In this document: piece by piece, positions 767-16,755 of the stretch
How the letters are laid out: each line of letters starts with the position of its first letter
Position numbering within the stretch: position 1 is the stretch's first letter
Assembly: GCA_002282015.1 (NCBI GenBank)
Contig: NCIJ01000017.1
Coordinates: 1 to 40,620 of the forward strand
DNA from: Sulfuricurvum sp. 17-40-25
Lineage (GTDB): Bacteria; Campylobacterota; Campylobacteria; Campylobacterales; Sulfurimonadaceae
Length of the DNA stretch: 40,620 bases
Reading direction: 5' to 3'
The notes under the pieces: model-generated
Told to the model about the DNA's origin: nothing
What the model saw: only the letters and a program-made list of their open reading frames with translations
Databases searched by the model: none
Position numbers and translations under genes: made by a program

Positions 767-869
767 TCAAATATTTTATTAAATAGAATATATCTTATGT
801 TATCTAAAGTAGATAATGTCTAATATATAGTTGGTTTTGTATTGTATATAACTAAAGCTATACAGCAAT

Positions 870-1070
870 TTATTTAGCATAAATATGTTCATACTCTTTT
901 GGAACTTGTGAAGTTATTTCGCCGCTTGGAAGCTGAAAATAAGCGACACCATCACGGCTGTATACATTGGCCACACCGTTAGCCAAGCTACGTGCTTGAG
1001 CTTCTTTAATTGCTTTTTTACCAATTTGAAGAACCATATCTCTAAATTTAAAATTTTCTACTGTCTTCAT
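870..1070 (-). CDS. Small conserved hypothetical protein, possible antitoxin-like
   Basis: A 66-residue protein with a basic, helical N-terminal half (KKAIKEAQARSLANG) and a C-terminal half reading NVYSRDGVAYFQLPSGEIT. I recall similar small proteins in Campylobacterota and other bacteria, often beside toxin genes, with the pattern NVY..NG.IYYELPNGE; no function is established that I know of. ATG at 1070 is preceded by GGAGGAAT, a good ribosome binding site. It lies directly downstream of the HepT/MntA pair on the same strand (28 bp gap), so it may be the last gene of that transcript. Confidence 0.65.
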   Translation of the reverse strand: MKTVENFKFRDMVLQIGKKAIKEAQARSLANGVANVYSRDGVAYFQLPSGEITSQVPKEYEHIYAK

Positions 1071-1097: not shown

Positions 1098-1448
1098 TTA
1101 TTGAATAATAACCAGACATTTTTCTTTGAATATTGGTAATCCATTGCGTATTATCCATTCAATAATTGCAAGGTTTACCCCTTCATAGTCATGTGCAATA
1201 TAGGTACGAACATCATAAAGTCCTTTAAGCTCGTCACTATTGAAAGAATCAAGGATCTGCGTTGCGTTTTCTTGTTTAAGCTTATTGAACTGCTCTGCAA
1301 TTGCTGTCAAATGCATAAGTATTGCTGGACGCATGGTGATTTCGTCATCTAACGCATTCGTAATACTTCCAGCATTATCAACAATATTTTCAATGTACTC
1401 AATTTTCTCAAGAACCATATAAATCTTACTAATTGACTCTTTAGACAT
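1098..1448 (-). CDS. hepT: HepT-like HEPN ribonuclease toxin
   Basis: HEPN-domain protein (DUF86/HepT family) of 116 residues, taking the start at ATG 1448. The HEPN RNase motif R-x4-H-x-Y reads RTYIAHDY: Arg81, His86 and Tyr88. In characterised HepT/MntA pairs the HEPN protein is the RNase toxin and the MNT protein inactivates it by adding AMP groups to the tyrosine of this motif; all three residues are present. The start overlaps the stop of the upstream nucleotidyltransferase gene as ATGTCTAA, implying translational coupling. A longer frame from 1463 exists, but its extra five residues are not family-like. Confidence 0.88.
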   Translation of the reverse strand: MSKESISKIYMVLEKIEYIENIVDNAGSITNALDDEITMRPAILMHLTAIAEQFNKLKQENATQILDSFNSDELKGLYDVRTYIAHDYEGVNLAIIEWIIRNGLPIFKEKCLVIIQ

Positions 1449-1749
1449 ACAATGCACGATCAATAATAAATTTTTTACCCGTTTTTCCCATACCAGTGCG
1501 ATCTGCCAAATCTACATGGACACCCAAAGCATTACTGAGTTCACTTTGAATTTGACGAATTCGTTCGAAAGATTTAAAACCATATTTAGATGCAAATTCA
1601 GGGGTAGCTTCAACCAATATATCAATATCACTTTTTTCAGTTGCATCATCTCTTGAATATGATCCAAAAAGGGCTTGTATCAAAAAACCCTCTTGCGCAT
1701 ATTTAGCTTTGACATTTCTAAGATAATTTAAAATTTGCTCTTTGTTCAT
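1441..1749 (-). CDS. mntA: MntA-like nucleotidyltransferase antitoxin
   Basis: Minimal nucleotidyltransferase of 102 residues (start ATG 1749). The signature GS-x10-D-x-D is intact: Gly29-Ser30, then DID with Asp41 and Asp43; a third carboxylate Asp80 lies in VHVDLAD. It is the adenylyltransferase antitoxin of the hepT gene that follows with an 8-bp overlap. A longer frame begins at GTG 1812, but its first 21 residues are unlike the family, and TATAAT (minus strand, 1757-1762) ends only 7 bp before ATG 1749. Transcription would then begin at or next to the ATG, suggesting a leaderless mRNA. Confidence 0.88.
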   Translation of the reverse strand: MNKEQILNYLRNVKAKYAQEGFLIQALFGSYSRDDATEKSDIDILVEATPEFASKYGFKSFERIRQIQSELSNALGVHVDLADRTGMGKTGKKFIIDRALYV

Positions 1750-1756
1750 GGTAATG

Positions 1757-1762
1757 ATTATA
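1757..1762 (-). promoter_or_regulatory. -10 element of mntA-hepT, start codon at +1
   Basis: A perfect TATAAT on the minus strand, with seven bases before the ATG of mntA. No clear -35 hexamer at 17 bp; GACTGA at 18 bp is a weak candidate. No Shine-Dalgarno sequence precedes the ATG, which fits leaderless translation. Confidence 0.5.
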
Positions 1763-1894
1763 GCAAAATTGTCGCAATATTCAGTCTGGGTGTATTTAAC
1801 AGCTGTAGCCACTTATATAGGATGAATTTAAAAGAATGGTATTATTTCGTCACATACTGTTTGAATTGCCAATTTTCTATACACTAAGGCCCAC

Positions 1895-3037
1895 ATGCAC
1901 CTTCGAGTCAGTGATCAGCACTATGCTCTGCAATATGATCAAAACAACAACTATATGTTGGCATATGAAGATATAGACGTAAACGTTGACAGTAATTTAA
2001 TTGTAGTAGAACCCTATGTATGTTTATTTGACGATGATTGGAAAATAGTTGATGAAGTTTGGGAATATATGCAGTACCTGCTTCATATCAAGAAACTATC
2101 CTTTTCGACGGTAATCACAAAAGGGTCAGATCTCAAGCTTTTTTATGAGTTTTTGCAACAGCATAAAATCAATTATCGTGCTACTACCCAAAAAACTATT
2201 CACGACTTCAATGTATGGCTATCACGCTGTGATCAACAGCCCCTTAATCGTATTATTTCATCCATGAAAAACTTTTATCAATACCATCATCAGCAAAATG
2301 GCCTCTCTACCCCATTTGATACAAGCACCCCATCAAGTCGCCCTGCTCCATCAAATGGACATACAAAGAATGCCCCTATTCACCAAAAGCTCATTAAAAT
2401 CAAAGAGTTTGATAATGGTATTCGAGTACTCTCCAAAGACCAAATTGAAACCATATTCAATGCCTGTACTATGCAGCGCGACCGTATATTATTTGAACTG
2501 CTTCTTTTTACGGGAATCCAAATCGCAGAAGCTCTGGGCTTAAATATACCATCTCTTGGTATTCCCGCTAAAAGACCACTTAGCCTTGATGAAGATAACA
2601 GTCAAGCTAAAAGCTACTACCATCAGCATAAAACCGGTATTCAAGATCTAAATATTCCGGCGCCATTGATGGAAAAACTATCAAATTATTACGAGAATAT
2701 TTGGCTAAAGATATATGACTCCAAGAAGATGCATCATGATTTTTTCTTTATCTCTGAATTTCATAATAACAAGGGTGAGCCTTTAACGTACCAGGCGGTT
2801 TGGGAACGCTGTCGCGGTATTGGCAAGAAGACAGGGCTCTTTTTTACCCCTGAGGATTTTAGACATACTCATGCTGCAGTTTTGTGCCATGATAAAGAGG
2901 GAAGTAAGCGTCTAAGAAAACTTCTGGGCAAAACACATGTTGCATCAATTGACACCTATGCTCAGATTGCACACAATGATCCAATCATGAATGAGCTAAT
3001 CCCCTATTATGAAAGCTATGGAGTCATTCGTGGATAA
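1895..3037 (+). CDS. Tyrosine recombinase (Tn554/integrase-like) with degenerate active site
   Basis: Protein of 380 residues with a SAM-like core-binding region (about 50-135) and a C-terminal phage-integrase fold (about 178-365). Catalytic positions: Arg I is Gln209 (FTGIQIAEALGL, normally TG-R-xxE), the beta-strand Lys246 is present (HKTG), the H-x-x-R box reads EDFR (Glu320 for His, Arg323 kept), the second His is Lys346 (LLGKTH) and the nucleophile Tyr355 is present (DTYAQI). Three of six conserved positions are therefore changed. RHTHA and LGK-x(8)-TYAQ spacing place it near Tn554-type recombinases. A small DUF6262/TnpC-like gene follows 23 bp later, as in Tn554-like elements, but the usual second recombinase is missing. 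It could be inactive, have altered chemistry, or serve as a partner subunit. Confidence 0.85.
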   Translation: MHLRVSDQHYALQYDQNNNYMLAYEDIDVNVDSNLIVVEPYVCLFDDDWKIVDEVWEYMQYLLHIKKLSFSTVITKGSDLKLFYEFLQQHKINYRATTQKTIHDFNVWLSRCDQQPLNRIISSMKNFYQYHHQQNGLSTPFDTSTPSSRPAPSNGHTKNAPIHQKLIKIKEFDNGIRVLSKDQIETIFNACTMQRDRILFELLLFTGIQIAEALGLNIPSLGIPAKRPLSLDEDNSQAKSYYHQHKTGIQDLNIPAPLMEKLSNYYENIWLKIYDSKKMHHDFFFISEFHNNKGEPLTYQAVWERCRGIGKKTGLFFTPEDFRHTHAAVLCHDKEGSKRLRKLLGKTHVASIDTYAQIAHNDPIMNELIPYYESYGVIRG

Positions 3038-3060
3038 AATAAATAGAGCAAAGGACTAAT

Positions 3061-3417
3061 ATGGCTAAAGGCGATTCTCTCAAACGATATAAAGAAGAAC
3101 AAAAAATACAAACACGCAAAAAGCTCGAAGAGGCTATCAGAGAGCTCAAGGCATCCGGAGGTGCAAAGATTACGGTTGATCAACTTGCGACGCTTTGTGG
3201 CATAAGCAGAGCGACGATTTATGCCAACTATAAAGATCTCTTGGAGAACCTCTCAGATAGAAGTACCACTTCAATGAAAATACAAGCAAACACTTCAAAA
3301 GCAAAAGATGCCATTATTGCCGATTTACGTGAAGAAAACAAAAAACTTCGTTTAGCAAATAACGCACTTATGGATCAAATTGTTGGAATGAAAATTTTAC
3401 TCGAAAAAACTACCTGA
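3061..3417 (+). CDS. DUF6262/TnpC-like HTH plus coiled-coil protein
   Basis: A 118-residue basic protein. Residues 15-58 form a small HTH (ITVDQLATLCGISRATIYANYKD) resembling TetR and DUF6262 proteins; residues 85-116 form a coiled coil (LREENKKLRLANNALMDQI). This layout, with the lysine/arginine-rich start, is typical of the small third protein (TnpC) of Tn554-like transposition gene sets. It directly follows the recombinase gene on the same strand with 23 bp between, so the two are probably co-transcribed. Its likely role is as an accessory DNA-binding partner of the recombinase; that is inference from family and position. Confidence 0.7.
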   Translation: MAKGDSLKRYKEEQKIQTRKKLEEAIRELKASGGAKITVDQLATLCGISRATIYANYKDLLENLSDRSTTSMKIQANTSKAKDAIIADLREENKKLRLANNALMDQIVGMKILLEKTT

Positions 3418-3511: not shown

Positions 3512-3724
3512 TCAGCTTGTCCACTTTAATTGTGGTTCAACGTGACGCATTGCACAATCGGTGAGATACGAGTTAATAAGGGTTTGATACGGTAGCCCCA
3601 TTTTTACAGATAGCTCTTTGAAATACTCAATAGTATTGACATCAACATTAAGCGATATCTGCTTTTTTACTTTTTTTGCATACGGGTTTTGGACAGATTG
3701 TGAAAAGTCGTATTCATCTCTCAT
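3512..3724 (-). CDS. brnA: BrnA/CopG-type ribbon-helix-helix antitoxin
   Basis: A 70-residue ribbon-helix-helix protein. The beta strand is KKQISLNVDVNTIEYF and the helix pair includes MGLPYQTLINSYLTD, the hallmark of BrnA-type antitoxins. The start ATG overlaps the stop of brnT by 4 bp (ATGA), so toxin comes first and antitoxin second, as usual in brnTA. It should bind BrnT and, as a complex, repress the brnT promoter, where a palindrome lies between -35 and -10. Confidence 0.85.
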   Translation of the reverse strand: MRDEYDFSQSVQNPYAKKVKKQISLNVDVNTIEYFKELSVKMGLPYQTLINSYLTDCAMRHVEPQLKWTS

Positions 3725-4014
3725 GGTAAAAACTCCTTATATTGGCGTGCTTCGTTTTTGGTTGATTCTCTGGCTGAGATAATCCGTATGATTCCATCTT
3801 GATCTCTATAGCAGTGAACAACGGTCAGTATTTTTAGGGTATAGCTCATCCCCAACAAAATAAACCGCTCTTCTTCTTGTGAGTGATCAGGGTCATGGAG
3901 TAAACGGGCGAAATCATCATCAAAGACAGTTCGAGCCTCTTCAAATGTGATGCCATGCTTTTTGACGTTAGTAAATGCTTTAGCTGGATCCCATTCAAAC
4001 TGTAACGATTTCAT
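3721..4014 (-). CDS. brnT: BrnT-type ribonuclease toxin
   Basis: A 97-residue protein with the full BrnT pattern: FEWDPAKAFTNVKKHGITFEEA at the start (residues 6-27), an acidic-aromatic middle with DHSQEEERFILLGMS, and IIRIISARESTKNE near the end. BrnT is a RelE-fold RNase neutralised by BrnA, whose gene overlaps its 3' end by 4 bp. The ATG at 4014 falls where transcription is predicted to begin (see the promoter at 4021-4049), and no Shine-Dalgarno precedes it, so a leaderless mRNA is likely. Confidence 0.9.
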   Translation of the reverse strand: MKSLQFEWDPAKAFTNVKKHGITFEEARTVFDDDFARLLHDPDHSQEEERFILLGMSYTLKILTVVHCYRDQDGIIRIISARESTKNEARQYKEFLP

Positions 4015-4049: not shown

Positions 4050-4209
4050 GTATGCATATGAGAAATGAAAAATTTCACTCATAAAACAAGAAAATTTGTC
4101 AAACAAATAACACTGTTTTCAATGTTAGTAATAAAAAGGTGGATTTCTTATGCAAATGACTTAAATGTGGGGTTTTTAAGATCGTGTGATTGATATTATT
4201 TTATTTGAC

Positions 4210-4257
4210 AGACAAAGCTACTTTAGATAACTTATGTTAACCAAAGTAGCTTTGTCT
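4210..4257. repeat. 15-bp perfect inverted repeat (strong hairpin)
   Basis: AGACAAAGCTACTTT (4210-4224) and its exact complement (4243-4257) flank an 18-base loop. It sits alone in the 640-bp AT-rich gap 4015-4658, far from a gene end, and no U-tract follows directly. The loop side shares CTACTTTAGATAAC (4218-4231) with the reverse strand at 799-812 beside the IS3 remnant, so it may be mobile-element debris rather than a terminator. Besides this hairpin and the start of the dispersed repeat, the gap holds nothing I can name. Confidence 0.55.
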
Positions 4258-4527
4258 ACTAAAAAATATAGATTATTTTATAAAATTGTAAATATTTTAC
4301 TTTTTGAGTAAATCAATCATTTTAAAGGCTTCATAAGCTATAAAAATACTTTACCCATGTTTAGGTATTGATTTGTCTAGAAAATCATTTGTAGATATAT
4401 TTATGAGCTTCTCATTGCATATTAAATCAATAATAAACAAACTTTTTAATATCAATCACTTAAATAATACTATTCTTTAAAATATTCATCAATGATATTT
4501 GATTTCTAATTTTTTTTGAATTCAAAG

Positions 4528-4672
4528 TTACTCACGCGCGGATTTAGTGATAACTTTCCTGTCTCTATCTACCTGTAATAAAGCACTTCTAGAGTCTATA
4601 TCTAAACTCTAGAATTCTATATATATTAATATAGTATATATTATATAGGGTTTTACCCCTAATATACATACT
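4528..4672. repeat. Dispersed direct repeat, copy 1
   Basis: About 145 bp shared, with divergence, with 7815-7953. Conserved blocks are AGTGATAACTT, ATAAAGCACTTCTA, AGTATAT and TTTTACCCCTAAT followed by TAC.TACTC. This copy also holds a 9-bp inverted repeat TTCTAGAGT/ACTCTAGAA (4587-4595 and 4606-4614) and runs into the last codons of the 4659-5282 gene. The GGGG..ACCCT part (about 4640-4655) can fold into a small hairpin that may end that gene's transcript. Confidence 0.6.
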
Positions 4673-5282
4673 CGACTTCACTCAATCCGTTCGTGAAAAG
4701 ATAGCCTGCATATTGATGATCACCAAAAGCAACCTGCTTAAAACTTGCATCGTCTGAAATCAAATTTAACGCCTCTAAAAACTCTAAGCTTATTAACTTT
4801 CGAAGCTTCAAACTGTTAATTGGAACCGCAGAAAATCGTTTCAAATTTGCACCTTTTTGTATGCAAACAACATGAAAATGACGCTTCTTTATTTCAAGAG
4901 AACGGGCATTTTTATACTTGCTCATGTCTATTTTATTGCTATTGATTTGCACTAATCCAAAAAACCCTTCAAGTATTCCGCACACTAAAAATTCAGCACG
5001 CTTATACCTCTCAGCATCAACACCTTCGCTCATTGAAAAGTCCGTCTCAATTGTCTGATCTCCAACCTTCCAAGCAATACAATGAACCAAATAATTGTAG
5101 TCAATATTGTAAGCCGAACCTTGTCGCGAATAAACAATTGGTGGTATAAAATCAACTACACTTTTGTTCTTTATGCACAACTCAACCGTATCTTCAATGA
5201 TAGATTCAAGCATCTCTTTTAGATGAACAGACGATGCAAAATAGTTCGTGATTGTCAGTGGGTAACTGTATTGGCTATCCAT
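4659..5282 (-). CDS. Hypothetical protein, 207 aa
   Basis: I do not recognise a family. The protein is soluble-looking: no signal peptide or membrane span, and a mixed alpha/beta composition. Only a few scattered cysteines and histidines occur (HCIAWK, KKRHFHVVC). The start at ATG 5282 is well supported by AGGGAG six bases upstream. It is a single gene diverging from hipBA and lies between the two dispersed repeats. The last codons and the stop lie inside repeat copy 1; copy 2 shows the related end GAGTACGTAGATTAG but no gene in front of it. An island-borne accessory protein; function unknown. Confidence 0.7.
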   Translation of the reverse strand: MDSQYSYPLTITNYFASSVHLKEMLESIIEDTVELCIKNKSVVDFIPPIVYSRQGSAYNIDYNYLVHCIAWKVGDQTIETDFSMSEGVDAERYKRAEFLVCGILEGFFGLVQINSNKIDMSKYKNARSLEIKKRHFHVVCIQKGANLKRFSAVPINSLKLRKLISLEFLEALNLISDDASFKQVAFGDHQYAGYLFTNGLSEVEYVY

Positions 5283-5586: not shown

Positions 5587-5889
5587 ATGATTGAGCTAAA
5601 AACCCCCTTTGAATTCATTGAAGCATTAATTGAAACGATTGAAAAAACGCGCAAGCGTAAAAAGCTTAGACAGCAGGATCTGTGTGAGCTTGCAGATCTT
5701 TCAATTGCTACCTATCAAAAATTTCTATATCAAAAAAAGATCAGTCTTACGTCTCTTGTGCAGATATTATATGCACTGGACATGATGTCTAATTTAGAAG
5801 GGCTAATCGCCTATGATGAGATACAAAGTCTTGATGATATCAGAGGGACTGCTAAGAAAAGTCCTTTACCACAGCGGATAAGGAAATAA
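5587..5889 (+). CDS. hipB: HipB-type XRE antitoxin and repressor
   Basis: A 100-residue XRE-family helix-turn-helix protein: the HTH spans about residues 20-60 (LRQQDLCELADLSIATYQKFLYQKKISLTSLVQIL). It lies one base upstream of hipA in the same direction, the standard hipBA order. Its role would be to hold HipA inactive and repress the operon through the two operators directly upstream. ATG 5587 has AGGAAG at a good distance. The C-terminal tail (KKSPLPQRIRK) is basic and probably flexible. Confidence 0.85.
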   Translation: MIELKTPFEFIEALIETIEKTRKRKKLRQQDLCELADLSIATYQKFLYQKKISLTSLVQILYALDMMSNLEGLIAYDEIQSLDDIRGTAKKSPLPQRIRK

Positions 5890-5890
5890 T

Positions 5891-7198
5891 ATGGTAAAAC
5901 AATTGGAAGTTGATGCATATTTATATGGGCACAAGATTGGAACCATGATAATTTATACAGGAAGAGTCTATTTTGAATATGATGCTTCCTTTAAATCTCT
6001 CGGACTTGAAATATCACCTCTAAAACTAAATACAAAAAAAATCACTGGTGCCTATACAAATCAAGATTCGCCGGATTTATATCATGGGATGCCCGGAGTT
6101 TTTTTTCAAGCACTTCCAGATAAGCATGGTATGCCGTTTATTGACCGCTATTTTGAAAGACAAGGGATTGCCGCCGATAAAGTGACATTACTGCAAAAGC
6201 TTACATTCATCGCTGATCGTGGGATGGGGGCAATAGAATATATACCGCAAGAGCATCAAGATGTTGAAGATAGCTCCATCGCCCTTAGCGCAAAATCTTT
6301 ACGTGAAGAGATGCAATACATTCTTGATGCTGACAATAAAAATACTAAGATCTCAGACTTTATGAACATTATCAATAATGCATCACCCATAGGAGGTGCG
6401 AGACCAAAATTACTGATCACCTACAATAAACAAAGTGGAGAAATCAAAAGCAATAGTGCTCAACAAGAGCATGGCTTTGTTCGCTCAATATTGAAATTTG
6501 ATGAGTCATACCCAAATACCAATGGAATGTATGAAAGTATTGAGCTGACAAAATTAGAATACCTTCACATGAGCCTTGCGTCAGAGTGCGGAATTACTAT
6601 AGCAGATATGACTCTGATTGAAGAAGACCGGGAACACCATCTTATCTTTACCCGATATGACAGGGATGATAACGACGAAAAAATCCATGTTTGCAGTGCG
6701 GCAGGTTTGATGCATAAAGATATCAGTATTCCTCAAATCATGTCTTATGAGGAATTACTGAAGTTGACCAATCTGATATGTAAAAGCCAGACTGATGTTG
6801 AACAGATGTATCGTCGGATGATTTTTAATGCATTATCATTCAACGTAGACGATCATGCAAAAAACTTTGAATTTATGATGGATCGAAATGGTAAATGGCG
6901 TCTTGCTCCGGCTTATGATGTCACCTATTCCAAAGGTGCACTCAAAGAACATCTGACCACTATCAACGGTAAAGGTTCAGATTTTACAATCGATGACTTT
7001 TTAGCAGTCGCAGAAAAAAATCTTATTGATAAAAAACATGCAAAATACATTATTGATACCATAGCCTCTGCGTTTACTACCTATGAAATAAGAGCTAAGC
7101 ACGCGGGAATAAATGCATTGGAAGCCACGAAAATTGCTAGTGAAATACAAGCACAACTTGTTAGGATGAATCTAATTGAAAATGTGAACATTTCATAA
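5891..7198 (+). CDS. hipA: HipA-type serine/threonine kinase toxin
   Basis: Protein of 435 residues, normal HipA length. The N-terminal HipA_N region covers about 1-105. The ATP loop is SPIGGARPK (about 165-173), with Lys173 as the ATP-contacting lysine. The catalytic loop NVDDHAKNF has Asp320/Asp321 and Asn325, and APAYDVTYS supplies the metal-binding Asp. All parts needed for kinase activity appear intact. Family members phosphorylate aminoacyl-tRNA synthetases (GltX in E. coli) and slow growth. Ser165 sits at the place of the autophosphorylated Ser150 of E. coli HipA. Follows hipB by one base. Confidence 0.92.
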   Translation: MVKQLEVDAYLYGHKIGTMIIYTGRVYFEYDASFKSLGLEISPLKLNTKKITGAYTNQDSPDLYHGMPGVFFQALPDKHGMPFIDRYFERQGIAADKVTLLQKLTFIADRGMGAIEYIPQEHQDVEDSSIALSAKSLREEMQYILDADNKNTKISDFMNIINNASPIGGARPKLLITYNKQSGEIKSNSAQQEHGFVRSILKFDESYPNTNGMYESIELTKLEYLHMSLASECGITIADMTLIEEDREHHLIFTRYDRDDNDEKIHVCSAAGLMHKDISIPQIMSYEELLKLTNLICKSQTDVEQMYRRMIFNALSFNVDDHAKNFEFMMDRNGKWRLAPAYDVTYSKGALKEHLTTINGKGSDFTIDDFLAVAEKNLIDKKHAKYIIDTIASAFTTYEIRAKHAGINALEATKIASEIQAQLVRMNLIENVNIS

Positions 7199-15565: not shown

Positions 15566-16143
15566 GCTCCCATTAAAAGTCACAATTAAGTTCATACTTT
15601 TACAAGTATATTGCACAATAATTATCACATAGTATTAATTTTTCGTAACCATGTGGAAAACTACTGTTTGTCGTATGGTTAACTTTATCGATATAGGATA
15701 TATTCTATTGAAAATTTTATGGAAAAATTAAACAGTATCCGAGAAAAGACTATCCATTGTCAGGTCTGCAAAATGGACATTTACCCCTTTGCCACGCACA
15801 GCTCCATAATTAGACATTGATTGCCCACAAGTGCTATTCAATACCTTAGATATCCACTGTCAGATGTGGCGCCATGTCAAAATGTAAAAAAATACGCGTT
15901 AGAAAACCTGAACTTTATCGACCGATTTGTCAACTGACAGCGTTTTCTTGCTGGTTTAAAGTTGTGACAGAAATTGACGGTATGTTTGCATTTAACAATA
16001 TAGTACTTTGGATCAGCAACAGAGAAGATCCAAAAAAATATTACTACAAAAGGTGTCAAAAACTTTCCTATAAACTCGTCTAAGTAGGATTTTATTTCGT
16101 TTCCTGAAATGACCAGTTTGACAGATAAATTTAGCTTAAAACC
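15566..16143. other. 578-bp stretch with only decayed or tiny ORFs
   Basis: No convincing gene. A 33-codon ORF (15719-15820) contains HCQVCKMDI, a Cys-x2-Cys pair, and 100 bp on a related stretch reads DIHCQMWRHVKM; the DNA ATCCA(T/C)TGTCAG is shared (15752 and 15852 areas). This suggests two decayed copies of one element. A 69-codon plus-strand frame (15874-16083) and its minus-strand shadow have no ribosome site and no family features. Confidence 0.4.
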
Positions 16144-16755
16144 CTATTTTTGGATCTTGCATATAATCAAATCAGGATTGTTAACATTATCAATCAAAAT
16201 CTTTTTTACCCTATCTTGCCATGCGGACTTAAATGCTTGCTTGATTTCAAAATCTGCTTTATTACTTATGATCATCTCAAGCCACACCTGCATCTTTGGA
16301 TCGATGCTTACGATTTCAGGATGGTATGAGAGTGTAACACGTGCCCCATTATCCACTCTTTCTAACGCTATTTCTCCATCAATGTCAGCTTCATAAATTA
16401 GTAAATTACGGCGATCAAATTTTCCTCTTAAGCCATGAAATCCGCTCGTATCGGTAGAACCTATGATAAGTGAAGCTACATTTGCCATTACCCCTACAAC
16501 CCCTTCCCCCAGCTTTCCTTTCATATAGACTTTCACCTCTCCGCGAACTGGAGTTTTATCCTCATAGAGACATTTTAATCCTTTTTGTAACATCAGATAA
16601 GCTCCTGCTACGGTTGGACAAGAGTGTCCAGCCAGTTTTACGACATCGGAATATCCATAGATAATTATCCCATCATGCGAAGCGCCGAGTACTTCTGCAA
16701 GAGGATCATATATGATTATGGTTGATACTGATTGAAAAAATAACGGTGTTGACAT
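16144..16755 (-). CDS. FmdE-domain protein
   Basis: 203 residues related to the E subunit of formylmethanofuran dehydrogenase (FmdE family, which also exists widely in bacteria without methanogenesis). The signature GHSCPTVAGAYLM contains His44 and Cys46 of the likely metal site. There is no C-terminal zinc finger of the longer archaeal type. ATG 16755 has AAGGAG 8 bases upstream; TATAAT lies at 16799-16804 on the minus strand. Its place next to a molybdoenzyme operon (nap) is suggestive, because FmdE proteins are found with molybdenum enzymes, but the function is not established. Confidence 0.8.
   Translation of the reverse strand: MSTPLFFQSVSTIIIYDPLAEVLGASHDGIIIYGYSDVVKLAGHSCPTVAGAYLMLQKGLKCLYEDKTPVRGEVKVYMKGKLGEGVVGVMANVASLIIGSTDTSGFHGLRGKFDRRNLLIYEADIDGEIALERVDNGARVTLSYHPEIVSIDPKMQVWLEMIISNKADFEIKQAFKSAWQDRVKKILIDNVNNPDLIICKIQK

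Follow-up and report, generated by a model that had tools for sequence, protein, structure and literature searches.

An altered TnpA-type tyrosine recombinase and its DUF6262 partner in a dif-like site of Sulfuricurvum

Results

Genes and catalytic residues of the element

The window (the whole 40,620-nucleotide stretch analyzed here) is contig C30 of the 2.3-Mb assembly of Sulfuricurvum sp. 17-40-25 and carries a 3.4-kb element with a tyrosine recombinase gene (tnpA*), a gene for a DUF6262 protein and cargo on both sides of the two (Table 1). The recombinase matched the Pfam models Phage_integrase (PF00589, 2.9e-16) and Phage_int_SAM_1 (PF02899, 1e-7); searches with PADLOC and NCBIfam returned no specific family. 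Alignment with its relatives placed Gln209 at Arg I, Lys246 at the beta-hairpin Lys, Glu320 at the His of the HxxR motif, Arg323 at Arg II, Lys346 at the second His and Tyr355 at the nucleophile. TnpA* reads Q/K/E/R/K/Y, therefore, where the Tn554 family has R-K-H-R-H-Y, exactly as called in the initial annotation of this DNA. An AlphaFold2 model built from two sequences had a mean pLDDT of 38.5 and was unusable, and a promoter and terminator scan gave matches no more frequent than in shuffled sequences.

The initial annotation had also paired the recombinase with a DUF6262-type protein and described the second recombinase of Tn554-type sets as missing, and both statements are borne out. The tnpA* stop falls at the stop position of canonical TnpA and the DUF6262 gene, whose Pfam match exceeds the cut-off, starts 23 bp downstream; it is 94% identical to the DUF6262 of a canonical element (L013). 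No tnpB was found in the window element, either between or after the two genes. Because the canonical family has the arrangement tnpA-tnpB-tnpB2-DUF6262, two recombinase genes (tnpB and tnpB2) rather than one have been lost. The junction retains a AAAGGACTAAT stretch that is found at the tnpB2 end in canonical relatives, and its length is identical in the window and in two copies of the variant in a sister metagenome-assembled genome (G023). A separate tnpA-DUF6262 pair in another genome (G450), where the short contig truncates tnpA on its 5' side, has the standard R/H/H residues and a different, longer junction. Thus, the tnpB genes have been lost repeatedly, and their loss alone does not lead to the Q/E/K residues.

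Table 1. Features of the element, in window positions.
Feature	Position	Strand	Remarks
Left end	776..830	+	outer XerC half of a dif-like site (TTAAATAGAATATATC), core CTTATGTTA, inner terminal repeat
66-aa ORF (cargo)	870..1070	-	no Pfam match; region conserved in G023
HepT-like ribonuclease, toxin (cargo)	1098..1463	-	PF01934, 4.3e-9
MNT nucleotidyltransferase, antitoxin (cargo)	1441..1812	-	PF01909, 3.2e-11
tnpA*, TnpA/GinA-type tyrosine recombinase	1895..3037	+	intact open ORF, 380 aa
Gln209 codon CAA, Arg I position	2519..2521	+	counted from ORF start
Glu320 codon GAG, HxxR His position	2852..2854	+	counted from ORF start
Lys346 codon AAA, second His position	2930..2932	+	counted from ORF start
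tnpA*/DUF6262 junction	3038..3060	+	23 bp; site of tnpB and tnpB2 in canonical relatives
DUF6262 protein, TnpC/GinD-like	3061..3417	+	118 aa; PF19776, 7.5e-7, slightly above cut-off; ORF intact
BrnA antitoxin (cargo)	3512..3724	-	PF14384, 1.5e-5, slightly below curated cut-off
BrnT toxin (cargo)	3721..4014	-	PF04365, 6.7e-27
Right end	4201..4250	+	inner terminal repeat (CTACTTTAGATAAC), core CTTATGTTA, outer XerD half (TTATGTTAACC) of a dif-like site

Toxin-antitoxin cargo recurs among the relatives. The element of pSULFM1 has RelE/XRE and HepT/MNT pairs, as annotated, in or beside it, and toxin-antitoxin-like ORFs, named by resemblance, lie in or beside the elements at L011-L014 and L100. At L100, right-end-like sequences at 1831 and 3227 flank a 398-aa ORF, which we take to be Fic-like, behind a tnpA-DUF6262 pair whose catalytic residues are the standard ones. 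Outside the window element, a 207-aa ORF (4659-5282) is homologous to the ORF behind a canonical set on contig C4 of the same genome (L011 14438-15064), and a toxin-antitoxin-like locus adjacent to the element (5587-7198) is presumably a HipB/HipA-like pair.

Relatives and the canonical operon

The TnpA* protein matched 6 of 60 genomes at an E value of 1e-3, its own included, with strong matches only in its own genome, G023 and G018. Relatives were found in 3 of 41 genomes of the genus (1e-25), in 9 of 228 of the family (profile search, 1e-30) and in 2 of 397 in each of the phylum and class samples; where the phylum sample gave weak DUF6262 matches, tblastn found no TnpA or TnpB relatives. A plasmid collection yielded 190 matching records, all below 60% identity and many from Gram-positive hosts, three of which (H1, H2 and H10) were inspected for their catalytic residues. 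We rejected a viral origin, as two scans of IMG/VR found no relative and a phage collection gave only 14 weak records.

The canonical operon, in which the four genes overlap or almost touch, is carried by G023 (contig C43), G018, pSULFM1 (with tnpB2 interrupted by an IS256), pAMYT, G453 and G566. The window's own genome has a second set on contig C4, with tnpB, tnpB2 and DUF6262 intact and a tnpA that lacks its first part and adjoins ORFs resembling a broken transposase, presumably of the Tn3 type. In its right half, from DUF6262 to the terminus, the window element shares 92.5% DNA identity with the canonical element on G023:C43, whereas the two tnpA products have only 56% protein identity, which indicates that the elements exchange parts by recombination.

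Among 14 aligned TnpA proteins, 11 have R/H/H, with Arg at the Arg I position in every one of them, and three have Q/E/K. The three are the window protein and two diverged copies in G023 that are 90% (copy 1) and 76% (copy 2) identical to it; a third G023 piece (L012 2639-2947), which repeats a 957-bp stretch of copy 2 exactly, was excluded from the counts. The initial annotation had set conservation of Q/E/K against standard residues in homologues, and each is found in part: the two closest copies share the altered residues and the 11 other relatives have R, H and H. Because R/H/H prevails in the family and Q/E/K recurs in two diverged copies, the variant is not a chance pattern. The Q/E/K sequences form one clade (support 100/100) nested in the canonical family, whose stem is long, at 0.57 changes per column. 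Only two assemblies are known to carry the variant, or 2 of the 41 genomes of the genus.

Element ends and the dif-like target

Comparison with the relatives by blastn revealed two short conserved blocks well outside positions 1895-3417. Once aligned, the blocks proved to be terminal inverted repeats (CTACTTTAGATAAC) with the common core CTTATGTTA, at about 795 and 4234; nothing was found near 1850 and 3450, where the initial annotation had suggested the ends. The left end is conserved with those of four canonical elements (L013, L014, L016 and L047) and the right end in L011, L012, L013 and L014. The arms of the window ends match the published dif of Sulfurimonas denitrificans (TTTCAATAGAATTTACATTATGTTAACC) and the similar dif of Sulfurovum (Carnoy and Roten, PMC2731167). 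Of the two complete XerC/XerD sites that flank a dif/pdif module, the left end has the XerC arm plus 9 of 11 positions of the XerD arm; the right end has the XerD arm and no recognizable XerC arm.

The same arrangement is seen in the relatives. The left ends of nine elements (window, L012, L013, L014, L016, L047, L096, L098 and L099) run outward into the XerC half, that of L012 being followed for just 13 bases, to the contig end. Eight of nine right ends (window, L011, L012, L013, L014, L096, L099 at 3303, and L100 at 3227 and 1831) run into the XerD half, L012 with a mismatch, and the end of L100 at 1831 deviates. L099 has a further end-like motif at 2022. Because their ends are flanked by XerC and XerD halves, the elements target dif or dif-like sites. 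When the outer flanks of the window element were joined, 18 of 60 genomes, its own included, had a match to the resulting site at no more than 3 mismatches, and a reversed control was matched in none of the 60. Exactly one match was present in 16 of the 18 genomes; the window's own genome and G023 had four each, as the element ends themselves match. GC skew was ambiguous as to the position of the terminus. We also considered an integron-like array of end sites in the window and rejected it, as there are just two exact end motifs and the three matches with 2 mismatches are at chance level by number.

Several other end-like sequences were noted. A second dif-like XerC half-site (TTTCAATAGAATATATC) at 15697-15713 (within 15680-15713, minus strand) continues into sequence unlike the XerD arm and lies near a gene (16144-16755) with a homologue next to an empty dif in G020; it resembles the end of a further element inserted at dif. 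The right end and its flank (4200-4270) form a near-perfect palindrome (CTACTTTAGATAACTTATGTTAACCAAAGTAG) that is also present in L011. A different end, GAATATATC followed by TTAGGTTAACCAACTTTT, occurs in three copies in the window's own genome (L044, L045 and L046, on contigs C16, C26 and C42), and the L044 copy has a 396-aa tyrosine recombinase next to it. Over 118 bp, the left flank on C26 shares 99% identity with the flank of the G023:C43 element, which suggests that two distinct types of element use a common site.

Selection on the variant

The window gene and G023 copy 1 differ at 82 nucleotides and 37 amino acids (dN/dS 0.24). Across 500 neutral simulations with 82 nucleotide changes, the amino-acid differences averaged 57.7 and never fell below 47. 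Counted by codon, the pair has 37 replacement to 36 silent changes (p = 0.00035 against a neutral ratio of 2.36:1). We split the changes by branch with copy 2 as the third row (269 codons), omitting the 10 codons that differ in all three. The ratio was 13:16 on the copy 1 branch (p = 0.004), 9:8 on the window branch, which is not significant alone (p = 0.10), and a neutral-looking 32:16 on the copy 2 branch (p = 0.34). Copy 2 has Q/E/K plus a change of Arg II to Lys and is N-terminally truncated, with in-frame stops upstream. In the G023 contig concerned (L012, G023:C80), which comes from a metagenome, stretches of 127, 144 and 957 bp are repeated exactly, so the arrangement of copies there may be partly an assembly artifact.

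About 0.1% of 2000 simulated frames were still open after 200 neutral substitutions; on the long stem to the Q/E/K clade, a neutral frame of such length would almost never stay open. Constraint acted after the fixation of Q/E/K, and it is clear solely for copy 1 or for the pair of window and copy 1. The initial annotation had argued that three changes in an open gene mark a dedicated variant and not decay. By themselves the three changes do not carry that conclusion, as copy 2 has all of them together with a lost Arg II, a truncated N-terminus and neutral evolution. What stands is that Q/E/K is shared and inherited and that the window and copy 1 pair is under purifying selection, so the variant goes beyond the random decay of one copy.

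Discussion

Comparison with known systems

The window element resembles the Tn554 family (tnpABC) in several respects. Its TnpA is homologous and about 25% identical to that of a Staphylococcus plasmid set carrying fexA, which we take to be Tn558; its DUF6262 aligned with the DUF6262 of that set and provides the TnpC-like component; and it has imperfect terminal inverted repeats and a specific target. The full sets of the relatives differ from Tn554 in having one extra recombinase and another target, and the window copy differs further in lacking TnpB and in its non-standard TnpA. RIT elements have three adjacent recombinase genes, unlike the single recombinase and DUF6262 of the window.

In GInt elements (ginABCD), three recombinases are followed by a small TnpC-like protein, and GinC is an essential protein with a recombinase fold that lacks Arg I (Bardaji 2017, PMC5385486). 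The full relatives share with GInt this order of three tyrosine recombinases and a small TnpC-like protein, site-specific insertion, cargo after the fourth gene and a short right end. The operon of three recombinases plus GinD is present in L013, L014, L017, L096 and L099; the window retains only one of the three recombinases, an altered TnpA. Further differences are the target, which is dif or a dif-like site for the window and its relatives and a gene end for GInt, and the retention of the first Arg and the Tyr in all three canonical recombinases here, in contrast to GinC. A study of SE elements describes another altered recombinase fold, Tfp, which lacks the catalytic set and is encoded in an operon with the TnpC-like Srap (Mob DNA 2023, PMC10214605). 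Tfp and TnpA* are thus alike in their altered folds and TnpC-like operon partners. According to the same study, however, Tfp has none of the RHRY residues and is encoded in addition to two active recombinases, whereas the altered protein of the window is TnpA itself, with its Tyr kept and no active partner in cis.

Cargo at dif-like sites has precedents as well. Examples are the Acinetobacter dif modules and IS1202-family insertion sequences at dif-like sites (PMC10132070) and the dif-targeting element LME-1 of Legionella (PMC9765430). Like the elements described here, dif/pdif modules and other dif-targeting elements place toxin-antitoxin or other cargo DNA at such sites; they either depend on the host Xer system or are themselves insertion sequences, whereas the elements here carry their own recombinase operon and terminal repeats. 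The literature on DUF6262 that we found, judged by title, concerns Clostridium and Listeria genomics. No paper joining Tn554 or GInt/ginABCD operons with dif targeting was found in the limited library searched, which leaves their absence from the literature unproven.

A non-autonomous derivative and its alternatives

We lean towards reading the element as a non-autonomous, dif-resident derivative whose TnpA* would bind DNA without cutting it and whose tnpA*-DUF6262 pair was kept for some time. The operon itself we regard, with moderate confidence, as the remnant recombination operon of a GInt/Tn554-kind element that resides, with toxin-antitoxin pairs, in dif-like sites of Campylobacterota. 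Judging from its residues, TnpA* has most likely lost cleavage, because Arg I and both His, invariant elsewhere in the family, have changed; and as the gene has nonetheless stayed open beside its partner, the protein probably binds DNA without cutting. The window lineage has lost tnpB and tnpB2, and a clean junction stands in their place. TnpA* would still fold and bind the core or the terminal repeats with DUF6262, and its presumed inability to cleave or exchange strands would make the element non-autonomous. Any movement would depend on full sets acting in trans or on homologous recombination with related elements. Potential sources in trans are the complete set of G023 and, in the window's own genome, intact TnpB, TnpB2 and DUF6262, but there the canonical tnpA is 5'-truncated. 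The pair may have been kept for DNA binding, plausibly regulating or occupying its own ends. Such a role with DUF6262 is the simplest reading by analogy with GinC and Tfp. The gene has been kept open and is constrained in at least one lineage.

The main rival, for the window copy too, is plain decay, with an element immobile after the loss of tnpB and tnpB2 and a tnpA* that is a pseudogene still open by chance. We consider this possible but unlikely. Copy 2, with its lost Arg II and N-terminus, its upstream stops and its near-neutral ratio, is what decay would produce, and the non-significant ratio on the window branch and the rarity of the variant in the genus are also in keeping with it. Against decay, the window and copy 1 are clearly constrained relative to each other, no stop arose along the long stem, and the junction and the DUF6262 gene are intact.

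Selection for binding itself could be taken further. TnpA* and DUF6262 may form a selected, non-cleaving complex that binds the element ends in or close to dif and controls what moves there, by regulating or excluding insertions or by modulating Xer. We think this improbable; if true, a recombinase would have been turned into a DNA-binding regulator at the hotspot of chromosome dimer resolution. A related reading, a dedicated regulator or immunity factor selected to bind the ends or dif and so block incoming full elements or XerCD, seems to us decidedly improbable. Purifying selection on a form without three catalytic residues, the retained DUF6262 pairing and the location in a dif-like site are consistent with it, but the variant is rare and both binding and exclusion are putative. 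In G023, moreover, the variant coexists with a complete canonical element on another contig, which gives no sign of genome-wide immunity. Least credible, and very improbable in our estimate, is a still active recombinase with a re-tuned site, in which Glu320 and Lys346 would assume the roles of the His residues and Gln209 would be tolerated. Arg II, the beta-hairpin Lys and the Tyr are indeed kept in the window and copy 1, and the HxxR His is also replaced in other recombinases of the same genome (by Asn in L078 and Lys in L077). Yet Arg I is retained by all 11 canonical relatives, its replacement by Gln is a well-known inactivating substitution in lambda Int, and no partner recombinase is present in cis.

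Whichever role the probably non-cleaving TnpA* may have, the window element links operons of the GInt/Tn554 type, dif as a target in Campylobacterota and toxin-antitoxin cargo. Its TnpA* lineage provides a clean test case for the residual abilities of a catalytically altered TnpA acting with TnpC, the same question that Tfp and GinC raise.
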